Shown here one piece after another: positions 28,199-39,238 of a stretch of DNA of 64,000 bases. Source of the DNA: an uncultured Planctomycetaceae bacterium. Lineage in GTDB: Bacteria; Planctomycetota; Planctomycetia; Pirellulales; Pirellulaceae. Within the stretch, counting starts at the first letter, position 1. Each line of letters starts with the position of its first letter. The notes beneath the pieces were generated by a model that was given only the letters and a program-made list of their open reading frames with translations, was not told the origin of the DNA and did not search any database. Position numbers and translations under genes: made by a program. The stretch lies in assembly GCA_937862885.1 (NCBI GenBank), contig CALMEE010000122.1, positions 62,001 through 126,000 of the forward strand, in the 5' to 3' direction.

Positions 28199-28972
28199 TT
28201 AGAAATCGTCTCGTCGGCGGTTTCGATTAGGGGCTTCGCCTCCCTCGCGATTCCGATTCCGTTGTCCCTGCATGCCGGGGAATGCGCCGCCACGGTCAAA
28301 TTCAAATCGGTCACCTACCAACTCTTTATATTGTTCCCGTTGAGAACTCGTCAGCACGCTCAAAATCGATTCCTGCATTTCCTGACGGGCCTTGCTCATC
28401 TTCTCTTCAAAATCCTTTTGAGCGGTTTCAGCCCGTTCTTTGAGTTGTTCCATCTGTTCATCGCTGATGTCCAACTTCTCTTTCAAAGACTCAAGAGCCG
28501 ACAACGCGCCGCGTTGCTGGCGATTCTGAATGACCAATTGATCAAGGCGCTTCGTCTGATGCGGTAGCAGGATCGACCGAATGTCTTCCTCAATTTCCTT
28601 CATTTTGGCTTGCATGTCTTCTTGGATTCTGCGGAAGTCCGGTCGTTCCCCACCGCGTCCCTGACCTTGAAAGCCCTGGAACATGTCTCTGCCCCATTCC
28701 CGCATTTCATTTTGAATATCTTCAAATTCCTTGATTTGATCTTCGTTGATGGCCAATTCTCGACGAATGTCGTCACGCATCAGCAACCCTAAAGCGCTAT
28801 CAAACATCTGTCCGAAGCCACCAGCTCCACCAAATCCACCGCCGCCCTGGCCACCAAATCCGCCGAATCCACCCCCCTGGCCACGTCCTCCAGGTTGAGC
28901 CAAACCGACATTACACGCCAATGCGGAAACTGCTAACACAGCGGCCAGCGTCAAACACCATCGAGAACCCAT
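28199..28972 (-). CDS. exported Gly-rich Spy/CpxP-like protein
   Basis: The 257-residue protein has a signal peptide (MGSRWCLTLAAVLAVSALA...) and then a ~40-residue segment of Gly, Phe and Gln repeats such as GGFGGFGGQGG. The rest is charged helix rich in Glu, Gln and Arg, with LAINEDQIKEFEDIQ, LLPHQTKRLDQL and LDISDEQMEQLKE, which resemble the LTxxQ repeats of Spy and CpxP. The tail is Arg/Asn-rich. Spy-type proteins are periplasmic chaperones, and planctomycetes have many long relatives of unknown role. The ATG at 28972 follows GGAGATGGAAA, a good ribosome binding site. The N-terminal extension from 29059 was rejected. Chaperone activity is inference. Confidence 0.75.
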   Translation of the reverse strand: MGSRWCLTLAAVLAVSALACNVGLAQPGGRGQGGGFGGFGGQGGGGFGGAGGFGQMFDSALGLLMRDDIRRELAINEDQIKEFEDIQNEMREWGRDMFQGFQGQGRGGERPDFRRIQEDMQAKMKEIEEDIRSILLPHQTKRLDQLVIQNRQQRGALSALESLKEKLDISDEQMEQLKERAETAQKDFEEKMSKARQEMQESILSVLTSSQREQYKELVGDRFEFDRGGAFPGMQGQRNRNREGGEAPNRNRRRDDF

Positions 28973-29914
28973 TTTCCATCTCCAAAATCTAAGACCAAAC
29001 TCGTTTATCTTTGCGTTCAAAAAATTCCACAATTCGTGGTTGTTTTTTGTATGGAACAAGAATTGCCAGCTTATGTTTCGGAAAAAGTCAATATTTTTGC
29101 AAAAAACTACCCGAATTCAGCAGAGACATGAATCGCCGTAACTCCCGAACCAACCGCAAACAACTGTCTTTCCGCGAGAGCCGCCGTAGATTGGCTGTTT
29201 TTGCTGAGAAATTGAGGCAATTTCCTATGTCTTTTCTAAATCGCCTTTGATGCACGATACCCATCGGCACAACGTGATCCAATTTCGAATTGACCAGCTA
29301 GTCGCCAATTAACCGCCAGCGTTTCAATCCAGGTTCCGCTACCACTCGCCAAGTCCCCTTTACCGCTTTCGCAGAAAAGGCCCCCGCGTCTCTAATTAGG
29401 TCGTTAGTTTGCTGCTCCAATCGAAGCGGTGAAAAGGCAACTTGATGAACCTCAGCGGAATTCCCGAACAAAACCATTCAATCTCGATCGTTTATGCTAA
29501 AATTGGGCTAGGCAACGCAATTTTTGCCCGTAAATTTTGGTTGGAGACTGTCGTCCCCGCGTTCGGCGTTAACGTTCCTCGGGTTTGGTGGTGCCAACGG
29601 GAAAGTTGATATGGACAAACGAAAAACGGCCGCTCCGCATGAAAACGAGTGCAGACAGCGGGACCGGGAACCGGGCGATGTGTTTCACGCGGCATTGGTT
29701 ACGCAATATCATCTTTTGAGCGATTAAACCGTGTGCTCACGTTTGTGAACCATCAATGAACTGCGCGTGCGAAAATGGAAGCTTAGTTATGAAGCTCTGA
29801 AATTTTTTTGGTGATTGCCTAGACTGCGGGCCATTTGTAATTTGTCTTCAAGTCCGCCAAACGTATGTTCGAACAGCAATTGGAAATTGAATAACTATTG
29901 TTAATGATCCGAAT
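28973..29914. other. 942-base intergenic region, no firm gene
   Basis: The largest gene-poor stretch in the window. Two plus-strand frames were considered: 29128-29250 (40 codons, very Arg-rich) and 29524-29727. Neither has a good ribosome binding site or recognisable motif. No tRNA or known structured RNA was identified. It holds the promoters of the divergent Spy-like and 203-residue membrane protein genes. Confidence 0.4.
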
Positions 29915-30526
29915 ATGAACACAGACCCATCGCAACCAAGTGACTTTGGTTCCTCGCAGTTCAGAAAAATTCAATTTGGCCATAAGCCGCATGAAGAAAT
30001 CAAATCCGAGGATATCGAGCGTTCCGCACGTGAACGGATCTCGGTGCCGGCGAAAATCCTATTGATCTTATCAATCCTGCATATAGCTGGCTTAGCGATT
30101 TTCGCGATGGTCTATGTGGGCGGCATGACCGTGAATAAAGGGGAATGGGTAGAATATTGGAACGAGTTGGCGCGCGAACAACACCGCGCGAACAAGCGAA
30201 CAAGTGGAGCCCAAAATCCGCGGTTGAACAAGAAAGAGGAGGAAGAACTCAAAAAGGTATATGCATGGAACGAAAATCTGTTTGCGATCATGCTAACCGC
30301 ACAGATTATTCAGTTTTTTGCTGGAATGTGTTTTGCCGTATTCATCGCAGTTGCTGCACGTAACATGATGCAACTTAAGAGGAGAAGACAAGCTTACATT
30401 GCCAGTATCCTTAGCGTGATCCCCTTTACGGCACCATTGTTTATTCTGGGAATACCCATCGGAATCTGGTGCTTAATTGCCTTAGGTCATCCCGATGTGA
30501 AACGGGCCTTCGATCGAATCAAATAA
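29915..30526 (+). CDS. small membrane protein of unknown function
   Basis: The 203-residue protein has three predicted membrane helices, near residues 48-70, 125-148 and 163-188. A charged loop of about 55 residues lies between the first two. The C-terminus (GIWCLIALGHPDVKRAF) resembles small planctomycete membrane proteins that end in a similar proline-containing DVK motif, but no function is known for them. It lies 113 bases before the ABC ATPase gene on the same strand and could be transcribed with it. Confidence 0.65.
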   Translation: MNTDPSQPSDFGSSQFRKIQFGHKPHEEIKSEDIERSARERISVPAKILLILSILHIAGLAIFAMVYVGGMTVNKGEWVEYWNELAREQHRANKRTSGAQNPRLNKKEEEELKKVYAWNENLFAIMLTAQIIQFFAGMCFAVFIAVAARNMMQLKRRRQAYIASILSVIPFTAPLFILGIPIGIWCLIALGHPDVKRAFDRIK

Positions 30527-30639
30527 CTCAGTTGTGCGAACGTCTCAGTTGCGTTCACTCCGTAGACCTAGCATCATGGGCCACTTGGTCCCCTCGGTTA
30601 GTTGCTTTTGCCCTAAGTTCGTCAAGGGAATCATGCATA

Positions 30640-31632
30640 ATGCAATTGGCCATTGAAGTTCGCAAGCTCGTCAAGACGTATCCTGGTCGTCCACCGGTCG
30701 AAGCAGTCCGCGGAATTGATTTGACCGTTGAAGTGGGGCAATGCTACGGCTTCTTGGGCCCAAATGGTGCTGGCAAGACGACGACAATTGAGATCCTTGA
30801 AGGGCTGATGTCGGCAACTTCGGGGTCCATACGTTTATTGGACCTCGACTGGCGGTCGAATCAACGGCAATTACGACAGCGTATTGGCGTATCCCTGCAA
30901 GAGACCAAGATGAGTGACAACTTGACGGTATTGGAAACGGTAAAACTTTTCCGCAGTTTCTACAACAGCGGGATCTCAGCCGAGGACGCCATCCAAAAGG
31001 TCAGCTTGCTCGAAAAATCCAAAGCCAGGGTAAAGACTTTGTCGGGCGGACAAAGACAACGATTGGCGATTGCCTGTGCGATTGTGGGCTCGCCTCAATT
31101 GTTGTTTTTAGACGAACCGACGACTGGCCTCGACCCCGCGAGTCGACGGCAGTTGTGGGACATCATTCGTGGTTTCAGGGAAGCTGGTCAGACGATTCTG
31201 CTGACCACACATTACATGGAGGAGGCGGAGCGATTGTGTGATCGCGTCGCCATCATTGATCAAGGCCGCATTATTGCGGAAGGAACACCGCCAGAGTTGA
31301 TTCGAGGTTTAGGGGCGGAACATGTTATCGAAATCCCTTTGGAGACGATGAAAAAAGCGATTGAGGCTTCTGCTGTCTCTGGTCTTCCCACGGTTCAGCA
31401 GGTCGAAGTGCAAGACAACTGTTTGCGCATTGCCGTTGGTCAACCGCATTTGGCGCTCCCAAAGCTGCTGGATGCTCTATCGAGCAGGGGCTTGGAAATG
31501 ACCGGACTTTCGATTCGGCACGCCACACTCGAAGATGTCTTCATTAGTCTGACAGGGAGAAACATCGACAACGGCAGTGCCAATGGTGCTCCAACACGAA
31601 TTGTTAATAGTGGCTCGACGTCGCTGAATTGA
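30640..31632 (+). CDS. ABC-2-type ABC transporter ATP-binding protein
   Basis: The 330-residue ATPase has Walker A GPNGAGKTTT, the Q-loop LQET, signature LSGGQRQRL, Walker B LLFLDEPTTGLD and the switch His in TTHYMEEAERL. The C-terminal ~90 residues form the extra domain seen in NodI/DrrA-type exporters (TLEDVFISLTGR). It powers the permease encoded next: the TGA stop overlaps that gene's ATG by one base (TGATG). The ATG at 30640 is preceded by AAGGGAA. The likely role is export of a lipid, drug or polysaccharide-type substrate; the substrate is unknown. Confidence 0.92.
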   Translation: MQLAIEVRKLVKTYPGRPPVEAVRGIDLTVEVGQCYGFLGPNGAGKTTTIEILEGLMSATSGSIRLLDLDWRSNQRQLRQRIGVSLQETKMSDNLTVLETVKLFRSFYNSGISAEDAIQKVSLLEKSKARVKTLSGGQRQRLAIACAIVGSPQLLFLDEPTTGLDPASRRQLWDIIRGFREAGQTILLTTHYMEEAERLCDRVAIIDQGRIIAEGTPPELIRGLGAEHVIEIPLETMKKAIEASAVSGLPTVQQVEVQDNCLRIAVGQPHLALPKLLDALSSRGLEMTGLSIRHATLEDVFISLTGRNIDNGSANGAPTRIVNSGSTSLN

Positions 31633-32735
31633 TGGTACTTAACCAGGACACGATGAACACAAGCCCCACACGCGAGTCGAACACGCCTTCTGGCAACTCT
31701 TCACCATTGCTGCAGATGGTCAAAGCACGTTTGCTGGAGTTTATACGTCAACCGGAGGCAATCTTTTGGGTTTACGTTTTTCCAGTGCTCATGATGGTGG
31801 CGCTGGGTGTTGCCTTTCGCTCAAGGTCGGTTGAGACGTTTGATGTGCTGATCGTCGAAGGAACGCAGGCCCATTCCGTTGCGCAAATCCTGGAGGGAGC
31901 AAGTGACTTTGCTTTTAATCTCTCGATATTGAGTGCTGATGAATGCGCCACAAGGTTACGAACTGGCAAGACCAGTTTAGTAATTGAAACAAAAGGCGAG
32001 TCTTATGTATATCGATTTGACCCGACACGACCTGGTAGCATGGCAGCCAAGGCCGCCGCCGATCAAACGTTGCAAGTGGCTGCAGGTCGGCAAGATGTGT
32101 TCGAAGCTGAAGAAGTTGCCAGCACGGAACCGGGCGGGCGGTACATCGACTTTCTGGTACCGGGACTCTTAGGACTCGGATTAATGGGAGGCGGGTTGTT
32201 TGGCGTGGGATTCGTAATCGTCGACATGAGAATTCGAAAACTGCTGAAGCTGTACATGGCCACACCCATGAAACGTTCTCATTTTCTTATGTCCTTAATG
32301 CTGAGCCGCATGGTGTTCATGATTCCCGAAGTACTCCTTTTATTGGTGATGGCGTGGTTGTTCTTCGGTGTGTTGATTTTCGGCTCGCTGTGGCTGGTCA
32401 TCCTGTTGATCGTTTTGGGGTCAATTCAATTCTCAGGAATCGGTCTATTGATTGCTTCCCGAGTGCGAACATTAGAAGCGGCCTCTGGACTCCTGAATCT
32501 CGTTATGTTGCCGATGTGGACCTTGAGTGGCGTATTCTTTTCGTATGACAATTTTCCACAAGCCATTCATCCATTGATCAAGGCGTTACCTTTGACGCCC
32601 TTGATTGACGCGTTGCGAGCCGCCATATTGGAAGGCGAAGGGCTCACTCAGCTAATTCCAGAGTTGGCAATAATTATGGTGTGGGCAATCGCCTCGTTTG
32701 GCGTTGCTTTATTGATTTTTCGCTGGCAAGATTAA
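31632..32735 (+). CDS. ABC-2-type ABC transporter permease
   Basis: The 367-residue protein has the ABC-2 layout. There is one helix near residue 45, a soluble loop of about 130 residues, then five helices in the C-terminal half with RSHFLMSLMLSRM and TLSGVFFSYDNFP, the usual ABC-2 segments. It pairs with the ATPase before it, to which it is translationally coupled (TGATG). A TTG at 31629 is an alternative start. The next ABC gene begins 77 bases downstream on the same strand, so all five genes to 35681 may form one transcript. Confidence 0.88.
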   Translation: MVLNQDTMNTSPTRESNTPSGNSSPLLQMVKARLLEFIRQPEAIFWVYVFPVLMMVALGVAFRSRSVETFDVLIVEGTQAHSVAQILEGASDFAFNLSILSADECATRLRTGKTSLVIETKGESYVYRFDPTRPGSMAAKAAADQTLQVAAGRQDVFEAEEVASTEPGGRYIDFLVPGLLGLGLMGGGLFGVGFVIVDMRIRKLLKLYMATPMKRSHFLMSLMLSRMVFMIPEVLLLLVMAWLFFGVLIFGSLWLVILLIVLGSIQFSGIGLLIASRVRTLEAASGLLNLVMLPMWTLSGVFFSYDNFPQAIHPLIKALPLTPLIDALRAAILEGEGLTQLIPELAIIMVWAIASFGVALLIFRWQD

Positions 32736-32812
32736 ACGGAATTCGTTTCCAGAATTGCTTCGTGGCCCGCCGATTTGCCAAGCCTAATCCAGTTTTTGTG
32801 GCCTCAGCCTAT

Positions 32813-33499
32813 ATGATTCGACTTCGCAACATTGAATTCTCGCACCCGCGATCGACGTTCCGTTTAAGTTTTCCGTTGCTCGAGATTGCACGCGGCGAAA
32901 AGGTAGCCATCGTTGGTCCGAGCGGGTGCGGCAAGACGACTCTTTTGAATTTAATTGCCGGCATTCTGTTGCCCCAATCGGGGATTGTCGAACTTGGCGG
33001 CGAAGCCATCTCAAAGATGAAAGATGCGCAACGCAGACGCTTTCGTATTGCGCGGATCGGCCAAGTATTTCAACGGTTCGAGCTGGTTGAGTACTTGAAT
33101 GTGCGCGATAACATTTTGTTTCCGGTTTACATAAATTTTTTGCTCCGCCTTGATCGAGCCACAATGCAGCGAGCCGAATCTGTCGGGGAACAATTGGGCC
33201 TAGCGGATAAGATGCTTCGCTTTCCAGCGCAGCTTTCACAAGGCGAACAACAACGCGTCGCCATCGGGCGTGCCATGCTCCTCGATCCACGCTGGATTCT
33301 GGCAGATGAACCTACGGGCAGCCTCGACCACTCGAATAAACTTAAGATGATCGACATGCTATTTGAGCAGAGCATGAAGAACAACAGCACTTTAATCGTT
33401 GTGACCCACGACACCGGCATTTTAGGTGGTTTTGATCGGATCATTGACTTCGCTGAACTTTGTGGCGCCCATTCGGAGGCCGCGCTAACTGCTTTATGA
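32813..33499 (+). CDS. MacB/LolD-type ABC transporter ATP-binding protein
   Basis: The 228-residue ATPase has Walker A GPSGCGKTTL, the signature as LSQGEQQRVAIGRA and Walker B WILADEPTGSLD followed by VVTHD. ADEPTGSLD and the short length are typical of the MacB/LolD/FtsE group, which drives mechanotransmission or lipoprotein release rather than classical solute import. Its stop overlaps the permease start by four bases (ATGA), which shows they are partners. The ATG at 32813 is chosen because the domain begins directly after it. Confidence 0.9.
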   Translation: MIRLRNIEFSHPRSTFRLSFPLLEIARGEKVAIVGPSGCGKTTLLNLIAGILLPQSGIVELGGEAISKMKDAQRRRFRIARIGQVFQRFELVEYLNVRDNILFPVYINFLLRLDRATMQRAESVGEQLGLADKMLRFPAQLSQGEQQRVAIGRAMLLDPRWILADEPTGSLDHSNKLKMIDMLFEQSMKNNSTLIVVTHDTGILGGFDRIIDFAELCGAHSEAALTAL

Positions 33500-34677
33500 C
33501 GAGAATCTTTTGGTTAGCTTGGCGGTACGTGCTGTATCATCGTTGGAAGACGGCGATCATGATTGCCTGTATATCGCTCACGTGCTTGTTCCCGATCGCG
33601 ATTTCTGTTTTGCTCGATCAGTTTAATCACCAGATCGTACTACGGGCTAGGGCGACGCCTTTCGTCGTTGGGGCTCGCGGCAGTAAGTTAGACTTGGCCC
33701 TGCATACGATCTATTTTGAAGGTCGTTCCCCCGAACAAATTCCCTATGGCAGCATGGAATTAGTGACATCATCCGGCTCGGCTGCAGCGCTACCGATTCA
33801 CTCCAAATATACGGCGCACGGCAAGCGGGTAATTGGCACAACACTCGACTACTTTGAGTTTCGCGGATTAGTCATCGATCGTGGCGATTCTCTCGTTCGC
33901 ATTGGCGACTGTGTTGTCGGAGCGAACGTAGCCAGAGATTTAAAGTTGAAGCCCGGTGACCAAATATTGACTCACTCGGATAATATTGTGGATATTGCGG
34001 GAAGTTATCCCGTCAAGTTGACCGTCACCGGCATTTTTTCCCCAGCCGATTCCCCCGATGATCAAGTAATTTTTGTCGATATCAAAACGACTTGGGTTAT
34101 CGATGGACATGGTCATGGCCATGCGGATGTCCGACATGTGGGTGATGAAAAATTACTCGGCATTGACGGAAACAAACGAATCGCCAGCGCGGCCGTTCAG
34201 CCTTACATCGAATTCGATGAAGAGTCTCTTCGCGACTTACATTTCCACGGAGTGATGCAAGACTTTCCGGTTTCGGCCATAATTGTTATACCGCGAGACG
34301 AACGATCGGCGACGTTGTTGTTGTCACAGCTAAACCGTAGCGAGTCAATGATCCAGATGACAGAACCGCTGTTGGAAGTTCAACAACTCATGGCAATCGT
34401 CTTCCAAATCAAGCGATTGTTTAACGCCAATGCTTTGTTGATGGGTATTTCTACGTTATTGTTGTTATTCTTGGTTGTTATGCTCTCGTTGCGATTGCGT
34501 GAAGGCGAACGACAAACCATGCATAAATTAGGTTGCGGTCGTCGCACGGTTTGGCTAACCCAGGTAACTGAACTCGTGTTGGTATTTATTTTTGCCAGCA
34601 TCTGCATCTCAATTATGACGATCTTGCTCGTCCTTGTTCCGCCAGATTTTCTTAAATGGTTCACAGTGGCATCATGA
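33496..34677 (+). CDS. FtsX/MacB-type ABC permease with His-rich loop
   Basis: The 393-residue protein has one N-terminal helix (about residues 14-36), a ~270-residue extracytoplasmic domain, and C-terminal helices near residues 310-332 and 360-385. The start matches FtsX-like permeases (LAWRYVLYHRWKTAIM; ATPFVVGARGSKLDLAL). The large domain contains HGHGHADVRH, a likely metal-binding loop. Family permeases normally have three C-terminal helices; I see only two clear ones, so the last may be short or missing. Four-base overlaps (ATGA) join it to the ATPase before it and the lipoprotein after it. A zinc-linked Vibrio system (Zrg) also uses an ABC pair of this general type, from memory. Confidence 0.82.
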   Translation: MTRIFWLAWRYVLYHRWKTAIMIACISLTCLFPIAISVLLDQFNHQIVLRARATPFVVGARGSKLDLALHTIYFEGRSPEQIPYGSMELVTSSGSAAALPIHSKYTAHGKRVIGTTLDYFEFRGLVIDRGDSLVRIGDCVVGANVARDLKLKPGDQILTHSDNIVDIAGSYPVKLTVTGIFSPADSPDDQVIFVDIKTTWVIDGHGHGHADVRHVGDEKLLGIDGNKRIASAAVQPYIEFDEESLRDLHFHGVMQDFPVSAIIVIPRDERSATLLLSQLNRSESMIQMTEPLLEVQQLMAIVFQIKRLFNANALLMGISTLLLLFLVVMLSLRLREGERQTMHKLGCGRRTVWLTQVTELVLVFIFASICISIMTILLVLVPPDFLKWFTVAS

Positions 34678-35681
34678 ATTCGCTGCGGCGTCAAAGATTT
34701 TTAGTGAAGATTAGCATTAGTGTTCGAGCCTGTTACCGCCGTCGATTGTGGTCGCAGTTGATCGTCTGCGTATTTTTACTTGCGGCTATTGGATGTCGGC
34801 AAAGTGTTGCTGACAAGTCAGGCGATAAGCAATATTCCGCGCAGCCACGTGTAATTGCAATCAGTTTTGCGCTGAAATCGTTGACGCAAGAATTGCTCGA
34901 CGGAATTTGCGAGGTCAGCATGCCTAATTACGCCGGACAATATCCGCTGCATTGGTATCCGAGAACTGAGTTCATTCGCGAGATGCAGCGGGCGGATTTG
35001 GTGATTTGCAACGGCGGCGGTGCGCAGGAAGCTCCTTGGCTAAATACCGTAACTGTATCGCCATCGAAATTGGTGGAAACGATCAACAATATTCAATTGA
35101 GTGACTTTCTTGTGGTCGACGATGCACCAACGCATTCCCATGGACCGGAGGGCGAGCATTCTCATTCTGGGTTAATCGCATCAACCTGGTTAAATCCCAG
35201 AGTGGCGAGAGATCAAGCTGAATACGTTTACCGACGGCTCGTTCAGCGCTTTCCGGAACATGCCGCTAGGATCGAGTTGAACCGCCATCAGCTGATTGAT
35301 AAATTCAAGGACTTGGAGGCGAGATTTGCTGAGATTATTGACTTGCGGGGGAAGGTCGTATTGAGCAGTGAACCTACGTTCAAATATCTATTCAAGAGCC
35401 TTGGAGTTGAGGACAAACACTACTTTTGGTCACAAGAAAAAGGCGAGCTAGAGGCTTCAATGTGGGAGGAGTTTGACACGACGCGTCCGCCTGCAGCCAG
35501 CGTCATGTTCTGGCCGTTTCCTCCTCCACCCGCAGTACAAGAAGGGTTGCGTAGCAGGTCCATCTCATTTGTGGCCTTGGATGCAATGATCGAAAAACCA
35601 AAAAACGAAACAGATTACTTTTCCACCATGCAAAAGAATCTGGCTTTGATCACCGCTAGTCTGTCGAATGACCTGAAATGA
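34674..35681 (+). CDS. ZnuA/TroA-like metal-binding lipoprotein with altered ligand residues
   Basis: The 335-residue protein has a lipoprotein signal (lipobox LLAAIGC) and a ZnuA-like body. ADLVICNGGG, STWLNPRVARDQA and the final segments with VMFWPFPPPPAV match the cluster A-I substrate-binding fold. The His ligands of ZnuA appear changed: the first position reads PLHWYP (His shifted by one), the DPH-x-WLDP His is Ser (STWLNP), and the third His is Glu (SSEPTF). A central loop HSHGPEGEHSHS is His-rich, as in many zinc-binding relatives. ATGA overlap couples it to the FtsX-type permease, an unusual partner for this fold. It probably binds a transition metal, but may not deliver it as ZnuA does. 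Confidence 0.78.
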   Translation: MNSLRRQRFLVKISISVRACYRRRLWSQLIVCVFLLAAIGCRQSVADKSGDKQYSAQPRVIAISFALKSLTQELLDGICEVSMPNYAGQYPLHWYPRTEFIREMQRADLVICNGGGAQEAPWLNTVTVSPSKLVETINNIQLSDFLVVDDAPTHSHGPEGEHSHSGLIASTWLNPRVARDQAEYVYRRLVQRFPEHAARIELNRHQLIDKFKDLEARFAEIIDLRGKVVLSSEPTFKYLFKSLGVEDKHYFWSQEKGELEASMWEEFDTTRPPAASVMFWPFPPPPAVQEGLRSRSISFVALDAMIEKPKNETDYFSTMQKNLALITASLSNDLK

Positions 35682-37852: not shown

Positions 37853-38215
37853 GTGGTTGATGTAAGGCAACGTGTCGATGGGCTAATCAGAATTGTGCTG
37901 CTGGAAGACGCAAAGATCTTGGACGAGCAGTTTGCCAAGTCTGTTGGCTCAAACATCGTCAAGCTTGTCAACGAGATGAGCCAAAAAAAACTACTCCTGA
38001 ATTTATCGAAAGTGCAATTCATGGCATCCGCCATGATTGGGCAACTCGTCTTGGTCCGCGAAAATTGCAAGCGTCGCGGCATTGAACTTGCAATCTGCGA
38101 TTTGAATCCAAATCTGTGCGAGGCCATAAAACTTATGCGGATCGATGAAATTTTGAAGGTCCACGACACAGAAGCGAATGCATTGGCGGCGATGTCTGAA
38201 TCGTCTGCCGGATGA
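37853..38215 (+). CDS. STAS-domain protein (anti-sigma-factor antagonist-like)
   Basis: The 120-residue protein is a single STAS domain. The regulatory loop reads VQFMASAMIGQLV where SpoIIAA has FMDSSGLG: the phosphorylated Ser is kept and the preceding Asp is Ala. In the classical pathway such a protein binds an anti-sigma kinase when unphosphorylated and frees a sigma factor. No RsbW-like kinase or sigma gene is adjacent, so the partner is unknown; planctomycetes have many solitary STAS proteins. The GTG start at 37853 is preceded by AGGTG. The next gene, a histone-deacetylase-family protein, starts 108 bases downstream. Confidence 0.82.
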   Translation: MVDVRQRVDGLIRIVLLEDAKILDEQFAKSVGSNIVKLVNEMSQKKLLLNLSKVQFMASAMIGQLVLVRENCKRRGIELAICDLNPNLCEAIKLMRIDEILKVHDTEANALAAMSESSAG

Positions 38216-38323
38216 CAGGCATTCGCGCTGGGGACTCACGTTGCCGCCAGGTGATGTTGCTTGCGTCTTCCCATCGACGGTAATGCGGCCTGTTCCTCTC
38301 CCAAAGTCGAAGAATGCATTTCA

Positions 38324-39238
38324 GTGAAGATATTCTACACCGATGTGTTTGAACTGCCATTGCCTCCTGGACATCGTTTTCCGATGGCCAAGTATCGACT
38401 GCTTCGACAACGGATCGAGGAATCGGATATTCGTCCTCATTGTCACTTGATCGTACCTCGTGCGGCGAGCAACGAGGAACTCATGCTTGTTCATACGCAA
38501 GATTATGTAACCCGTGTCGTTTCAGGGCAATTGTCTCAATTGGAACAGCGCCGGATAGGGTTCCCTTGGTCTGAAGCCATGGTTGAACGATCGCGCCGAT
38601 CCGTTGGCGCGTCAATTGACGCAGGACTTGCTGCGCTGCAAGATGGCATCGGCGTTAATCTGGCCGGTGGCACGCACCACGCCTTCGCAGAAAGTGGGCA
38701 AGGTTACTGCGTTTTTAACGATGTTTGTGTGGCTGCCCGCGTGTTACAGCGGGAAACGCCGGTGCACAGAGTCTTGATTGTCGATTGTGACGTGCATCAA
38801 GGAAATGGGACTGCAGCCATTTGTCAACATGATCCAAGCCTGTTTTCTTTCTCGATGCATTGCGACAAGAATTTTCCGTTTCGCAAGGCGAACAGCGATC
38901 TCGATATTGCCTTACCGGAAGGCACATCCGATGCAAAGTATCTGGACGCGCTGGAAAGGGGTTTGGCTTCGGTGTTCCGCTTGTTCACGCCTGACATCTG
39001 CTTCTACGTATCCGGTGCGGATCCTTTTTCGGATGATCGCCTGGGACGACTCAAGTTGACCAAACGTGGATTAGCTCAGAGGGACAGTTTGGTTATTGAA
39101 TCTATGAACCATTATCGGATACCTGTCGTCGTCACGATGGCTGGCGGCTATGCTAAGCAAATAGACGATATCGTCGAAATTCACTTCACGACGGTTTCAA
39201 CGGCTTTACGGGTGACAAAAGGCTTGCCTAGTCACTGA
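38324..39238 (+). CDS. histone deacetylase family (AcuC/HDAC-like) hydrolase
   Basis: The 304-residue protein has the arginase/deacetylase fold with the HDAC active site: GGTHHAF (paired His), DCDVHQGNGT (zinc Asp and His) and SGADPF (second zinc Asp). PPGHRFPMAKYRLLR is the usual N-terminal region. Family members remove acyl groups from lysines, polyamines or acetoin-related substrates. Here the substrate is unknown; acetyl-lysine or acetylpolyamine are options, and arginine decarboxylase ~17 kb away gives only loose support for the latter. The GTG at 38324 directly precedes the conserved KIFYTD segment; an upstream extension was dropped. It follows the STAS gene on the same strand. Confidence 0.88.
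   Translation: MKIFYTDVFELPLPPGHRFPMAKYRLLRQRIEESDIRPHCHLIVPRAASNEELMLVHTQDYVTRVVSGQLSQLEQRRIGFPWSEAMVERSRRSVGASIDAGLAALQDGIGVNLAGGTHHAFAESGQGYCVFNDVCVAARVLQRETPVHRVLIVDCDVHQGNGTAAICQHDPSLFSFSMHCDKNFPFRKANSDLDIALPEGTSDAKYLDALERGLASVFRLFTPDICFYVSGADPFSDDRLGRLKLTKRGLAQRDSLVIESMNHYRIPVVVTMAGGYAKQIDDIVEIHFTTVSTALRVTKGLPSH

Follow-up and report, generated by a model that had tools for sequence, protein, structure and literature searches.

We analysed a stretch of 64,000 nucleotides from an uncultured Planctomycetaceae bacterium (GenBank assembly GCA_937862885.1, contig CALMEE010000122.1, positions 62,001 to 126,000), hereafter the window. It contains three genes for an ATPase, a permease and a ZnuA/TroA-like lipoprotein (Table 1). 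All three genes are on the forward strand and, as a preliminary description of this DNA had stated, each neighboring pair shares four nucleotides; these read ATGA. That description also drew attention to the coupling of a ZnuA-like lipoprotein to a MacB/LolC-type ATP-binding cassette (ABC) pair, that is, the ATPase and the permease. The coupling is real: the two occur together in many planctomycete genomes, and the gene order recurs.

Table 1. Genes and sequence features of the ATPase-permease-lipoprotein locus (window coordinates)
Feature	Position	Strand	Basis
ATPase, MacB/LolD/FtsE type, 228 aa	32813..33499	+	ABC_tran 1.2e-30 (Pfam)
Type VII (MacB/LolC-fold) permease, 393 aa	33496..34677	+	MacB_PCD 2.4e-7 (Pfam)
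GHGH motif, permease periplasmic domain, residues 206-209	34111..34122	+	conservation among relatives
HFHG motif, permease periplasmic domain, residues 249-252	34240..34251	+	conservation among relatives
Non-canonical ZnuA/TroA-like lipoprotein, 335 aa	34674..35681	+	Pfam ZnuA 1.1e-22
Lipobox LAAIGC (Cys41) of lipoprotein	34779..34796	+	sequence reading
His loop HSHGPEGEHSH, lipoprotein residues 154-164	35133..35165	+	conservation among relatives

Co-occurrence was surveyed in two samples, one of 98 near relatives and one of 199 genomes across the planctomycete phylum; the Fisher P values given here ignore shared ancestry. In the phylum sample, the permease was found in 50 genomes and the ZnuA-like protein in 47, with both in 46. 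Four genomes had only the permease, one had only the ZnuA-like protein and 148 had neither (P = 3e-39), an association far beyond chance. Neighborhood clustering revealed another protein family, of about 400-690 amino acids, encoded beside the ABC pair in many genomes. It has no Pfam or NCBIfam assignment, and we named it C5. C5 was present in 51 of the 199 genomes, including every one of the 50 with the permease (P = 1e-46). The only C5 genome without the permease, G243, was fragmented, and it also had the ZnuA-like protein. Among the near relatives, the set of 23 genomes with strong permease matches was identical to that with strong C5 matches; the ZnuA-like protein was encoded by 15 of them and by none of the other 75. 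These counts imply that C5 and the ABC pair form the core and that the ZnuA-like protein is the usual third partner. The preliminary description was incomplete on this point: the ZnuA-like protein is less constant than C5, which had been overlooked.

According to the coordinates, the ZnuA-like gene was directly 3′ of the permease gene in 40 of the 46 phylum genomes with both. In the window's own family, the two genes adjoined each other in only three of 15 genomes (G000, G022 and G034). The wider phylum sample overturned an early idea that the linkage of the ZnuA-like gene is loose, which had come from its separate position in most of the closest relatives. Across phyla, the order was C5-ATPase-permease-ZnuA-like, which we refer to as the cassette. 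The ZnuA-like gene lay within two genes of the permease gene in 60 of 77 loci, and C5 within three genes in 40 of them; the ATPase gene adjoined the permease gene in nearly all relatives.

The ATPase is of the MacB/LolD type, as had been described, with intact Walker A (GPSGCGKT), signature (LSQGE) and Walker B/D-loop (ILADEPTGSLD) motifs. Its best NCBIfam models were bacteriocin-export ABC, FtsE and LolD, every score being under the model cut-off. The permease had been called FtsX-type. Its predicted fold is indeed that of the type VII (MacB) group, but Pfam FtsX (PF02687) gave no match and the protein ends after the third transmembrane helix (TM3). It consists of TM1, a periplasmic domain of about 260 amino acids, TM2 and TM3; hydropathy placed the helices solely at residues 21-39, 314-332 and 361-379, with the C-terminus about 13 residues past TM3. 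An AlphaFold model from 71 relatives (one plasmid-derived row was left out of the folding alignment) had a mean predicted local distance difference test (pLDDT) score of 86.6 and a type VII fold. Its VIA Z scores were 17.6 to Spr0695, 16 to LolE and 13.8 to the MacB periplasmic domain 3ftj (root-mean-square deviation, rmsd, 3.8 over 186 residues). Whole-chain rmsd values were large, as is expected if the domains swing, and the domain-level matches were firm. With LolCDE, MacB, FtsEX and YbbAP, the cassette shares the periplasmic-domain fold, the first three helices and the ATPase type. Unlike them, its permease has neither TM4 nor the FtsX C-terminal domain, and its partners are metal-type proteins rather than LolA, MacA/TolC, EnvC or TesA.

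The permease profile scored ZrgB of Pseudomonas aeruginosa and Catenovulum at 90 and 99 bits, but MacB, FtsX and LolE at just 12-17 bits. In hhalign, the permease and ZrgB gave 99.1% over 345 columns. Judged by these comparisons, the closest known family of the permease is ZrgB, and the cassette has the same ABC type as Zrg and PA4063-PA4066 of P. aeruginosa. The differences are also clear. ZrgB has four TM helices, matches the FtsX model at 69.6 bits and lacks the GHGH and HxH motifs of the cassette permease. In the latter, H207/H209 (GHGH) and H249/H251 (HFHG) were invariant in 71 aligned relatives; GHGH was present in 72 of 74, and the second motif commonly reads FHFHG. A permease on a Deinococcus plasmid scored 86 bits, so the permease clade is wider than Zrg. 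On D. radiodurans pMP1 (L177:4243-6044) and in Shinella (L178:4291-6236), a permease relative was located 3′ of genes for an alkaline phosphatase and a small hypothetical protein; these distant loci seem to represent another branch of the ABC type that has different partners.

A C5 model from 29 relatives (pLDDT 81.7) suggested several domains. Residues 50-235 matched best the copper-binding Ang-1 domain of a HupE/UreJ-2 protein (9gce; Z 11.3, rmsd 3.6, 141 residues), and residues 237-395 matched the structures of ZrgA and PA4063 (Z 8.6-9.8, about 130 residues, rmsd about 4). They are followed by a predicted helical (membrane) hairpin at residues 423-462 and an NTF2/ARC6-like domain at residues 480-627 (Z about 10), in which an invariant HWGHxHxR motif is located. 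In many other planctomycete copies, the match to the C5 model was confined to its second half. Ang-1 and its relatives DUF6702 and DUF4198 are secreted domains that have been linked to copper and nickel (PMC12537917). Anglerase Ang-1 differs from C5 in being fused to HupE/UreJ-2 permeases. Several planctomycete C5 copies have a predicted N-terminal His after signal cleavage (AHPxS), but this residue is unclear in the copy of the window genome and in most non-planctomycete copies.

A sequence link between C5 and ZrgA was also looked for, but hhalign found no sequence similarity between them, and there was no match to the ZrgA family PF10986. Therefore, the resemblance is one of fold and not proven descent, and a shared fold by itself does not establish a shared function. 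The preliminary description had likened the ABC pair to the Vibrio Zrg system but assigned the latter a different periplasmic protein. The pairs are related, but the contrast was too simple because the constant partner C5 has a predicted ZrgA-like domain. A ZrgA-fold protein thus appears to be a partner in both systems, although in the cassette the domain lies inside a larger protein that seems to be membrane-anchored. The cassette also differs from Zrg in its extra ZnuA-like protein. DUF3299 (ZrgE) was not among the annotated cassette neighbors, although no search was aimed at it.

The identification of the lipoprotein as ZnuA/TroA-like was confirmed by its lipobox, by Pfam ZnuA (81 bits; cut-off 29) and by PDB alignments, covering most of the protein, to cluster A-I proteins of solved structure, namely ZnuA (2ogw, 1.4e-10) and a manganese-binding protein of the PsaA type (4utp, 1.6e-10). 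From sequence, it is a member of the cluster A-I family. Cys41 was invariant in 14 family-level relatives. A lipobox was present in just 29 of the 82 relatives of this protein; the majority are therefore not lipoproteins, and lipoprotein status is mainly a planctomycete trait. We read the ligand positions by aligning the 82 relatives with canonical ZnuA copies. His1 of the classical ligands was retained in one relative, His2 in eight, His3 in 65 and Asp4 in 28; the window lipoprotein has L, S, E (E233) and D at these positions. The His-rich loop of ZnuA is usually variable, whereas the HxHGPxGEHxH loop here is near-invariant (HxHG in 81 of 82 relatives; H162 and H164 in 96%). In a phylogenetic tree, four canonical ZnuA proteins were separated from the rest by a long branch with full support (4.13 changes per site, 100/100). 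The window protein clustered with four Mariniblastus copies, all from ATPase-permease-ZnuA-like clusters; its finer placement is unsure owing to the rooting and long branches.

The genome encodes two more ZnuA-family proteins, on contigs C5 (a contig label, not the protein family) and C121. They had Pfam scores of 278 and 240 bits, compared with 81 for the lipoprotein, and both adjoin ABC-3 permeases. The window system is thus additional and not the sole ZnuA system of the cell. Beside the canonical ZnuA on contig C121 (L068:9915-12675), each of two ABC-3 permeases ends in Fe_dep_repr_C, that is, a transporter with a C-terminal fusion to the metal-binding (metal-sensor) domain of iron-dependent repressors.

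The wider distribution was surveyed with one genome per species and a permease alignment of six sequences, since one of 19 was too diverse. The scan yielded 341 permease relatives. The best 80 of these came mostly from metagenome-assembled genomes and included Planctomycetota, Verrucomicrobiota, Lentisphaerota, Pseudomonadota, Desulfobacterota, Myxococcota and others, although some short contigs were possibly misbinned (e.g. those labelled Fimbriimonadia, Flavobacteriaceae and Crocosphaera). The preliminary description had proposed looking for the three-gene order elsewhere, and the order recurred in Planctomycetota, Verrucomicrobiota, Pseudomonadota and Desulfobacterota. Finished plasmids of the cultured species Methylomagnum ishizawai and Paracoccus liaowanqingii carry ATPase, permease and ZnuA-like genes in that order, which is therefore not an assembly artefact. 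We found no description of the cassette in the open-licence literature.

A Pfam census of 89 neighbors showed no conserved extra partner and no constant regulator. CopC, a two-component system and a TonB receptor were near the cassettes of Methylococcales, NikR near that of Methylomagnum and DUF4198 near that of Paracoccus. A scan for the NikR box upstream of the cassettes found nothing. Proteins of the metallo-beta-lactamase fold were near the cassette in 15 of about 81 loci. They recur as cluster c14 (L085:2471-4408, L089 and L090) and as cluster k5 (L108, L113, L127, L131, L138, L148, L154, L156, L157, L160, L163 and L166). Three of the planctomycete genomes with no ZnuA-like protein (G002, G005 and G008) encode one beside C5 and the ABC pair. 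These proteins were considered as client enzymes, an idea that was dropped because the loci were too few.

Directly 5′ of the ATPase gene in the window, and in the same direction, genes at 29915-32735 encode a 203-amino-acid membrane protein, a DrrA-type ATPase and an ABC-2 permease. The same block precedes the ABC pair in one or two relatives, namely in locus L071 and, without a clustered small protein, in L073; in L095, an ABC-2 gene is likewise upstream. Elsewhere in the window, a histone-deacetylase-like protein (38261-39235; PF00850, 5e-59) is encoded beside a STAS-domain protein (37853-38212), and the minus strand at 28202-29059 encodes a secreted-looking protein of 286 amino acids, Gly-rich and Arg/Glu-rich, with no significant Pfam match.

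With ZnuABC, TroABC and PsaABC, the cassette has in common a protein of the cluster A-I sequence family and a His-rich loop, but its permease is of type VII instead of ABC-3 (PF00950) and most of the classical ligands are lost. Given these differences in permease, ligands and partners, the cassette is not a ZnuABC importer, LolCDE or MacAB. It is Zrg-related: it lacks the defining features of ZnuABC and of the four-helix type VII permeases and has part of those of Zrg. The type VII systems characterized so far act mechanically in the periplasm and, as a rule, carry no substrate across the membrane (PMC12646458). We think it probable, by a modest measure, that the cassette is a conserved type VII ABC system, related to Zrg, that handles transition metals in the periplasm by ATP-driven transfer between carriers. 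As in LolCDE, FtsEX and MacB, the periplasmic domains would be set in motion when the ATPase binds ATP. A transition metal might thereby be loaded or stripped among C5, the His motifs of the permease and the ZnuA-like His loop, so that the metal would be handed between periplasmic carriers and not through the membrane domain. His motifs on a moving permease domain, together with two His-bearing partners, would fit such a hand-over. The mechanotransmission pump suggested in the preliminary description accords with the fold, although periplasmic carriers are the more likely target of its work. By analogy with Zrg, which is zinc-regulated and zinc-linked (PMC9820375, PMC9817125, PMC11481552) and whose ZrgA binds zinc (PMC9820375), zinc is the most likely metal; copper, nickel or cobalt are possible.

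Several observations weigh against metal transfer between periplasmic carriers. The single C5 copy of the window genome (contig C7, about 32528-34459) is unlinked to the ABC pair, and the likeness of C5 to ZrgA is one of predicted fold only. The surroundings of the cassette are not conserved, and they hint at several metals (CopC, NikR, DUF4198 and metallo-beta-lactamases). A crude scan for a GTTAT..ATAAC Zur box 5′ of 77 cassettes was empty, although this box may not be that of planctomycetes. The His motifs could be structural.

Alternatively, the cassette might be a true importer, with the ZnuA-like protein and C5 capturing metal that the ABC pair then transports into the cytoplasm. The same has been proposed for ZrgABC in Vibrio, where zrg mutants grow poorly under zinc limitation (PMC9820375, PMC9817125). 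This defect, the position of ZrgB as the nearest characterized relative of the permease and the TonB receptors adjoining some loci are in its favor. However, a translocation path is not known for most type VII members, and the cassette permease is short of one helix. Most of the classical ligands are missing from the ZnuA-like protein, and two ABC-3 metal systems are already present in the genome. The suggestion that the system works differently from classical uptake seems sound, and we regard import as unlikely. Export of a metal or a metal-metallophore complex from the periplasm appears slightly less likely still. Pyochelin-cobalt export was proposed for PA4063-PA4066, in which PA4064/PA4065 are of the same ABC type and deletion of PA4065 raises cellular cobalt (PMC11481552). 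The MacB-like fold of the cassette permease would agree with export, as would the ABC-2 exporter pair that immediately precedes the ABC pair in the window and two relatives; a metal-gated exporter had been put forward as a possible form. But neither a MacA-type adaptor nor a TolC-type channel was a regular cassette neighbor, and no conserved metallophore genes were seen near the cassettes. Finally, it is very improbable that the cassette works like LolCDE, sorting or releasing its own lipoprotein, and takes no active part in metal handling. The permease fold does match LolC/LolE and the window partner is a lipoprotein, but so few ZnuA-like relatives have a lipobox, and a metal is indicated by the His motifs, invariant or nearly so, that each of the three extracytoplasmic proteins carries.

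If metal is transferred between periplasmic carriers, the cassette might even represent a distinct type VII class, with a three-helix permease, built-in periplasmic His sites and ATP-driven metal transfer between C5 and a re-purposed ZnuA in several phyla; we put this forward tentatively, as the less probable outcome. How a MacB-type ABC pair serves zinc homeostasis is in open dispute, Zrg being seen as an importer in Vibrio and as a metallophore exporter in Pseudomonas. The cassette is a widespread Zrg relative with a predicted ZrgA-like domain in its constant partner C5, and all its parts are defined here. It offers new testable sites (GHGH, HxH, HxHGPxGEHxH and HWGHxH) and a natural three-helix permease. 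In addition, many genes annotated as 'zinc ABC transporter substrate-binding protein' probably do not encode classical uptake proteins.

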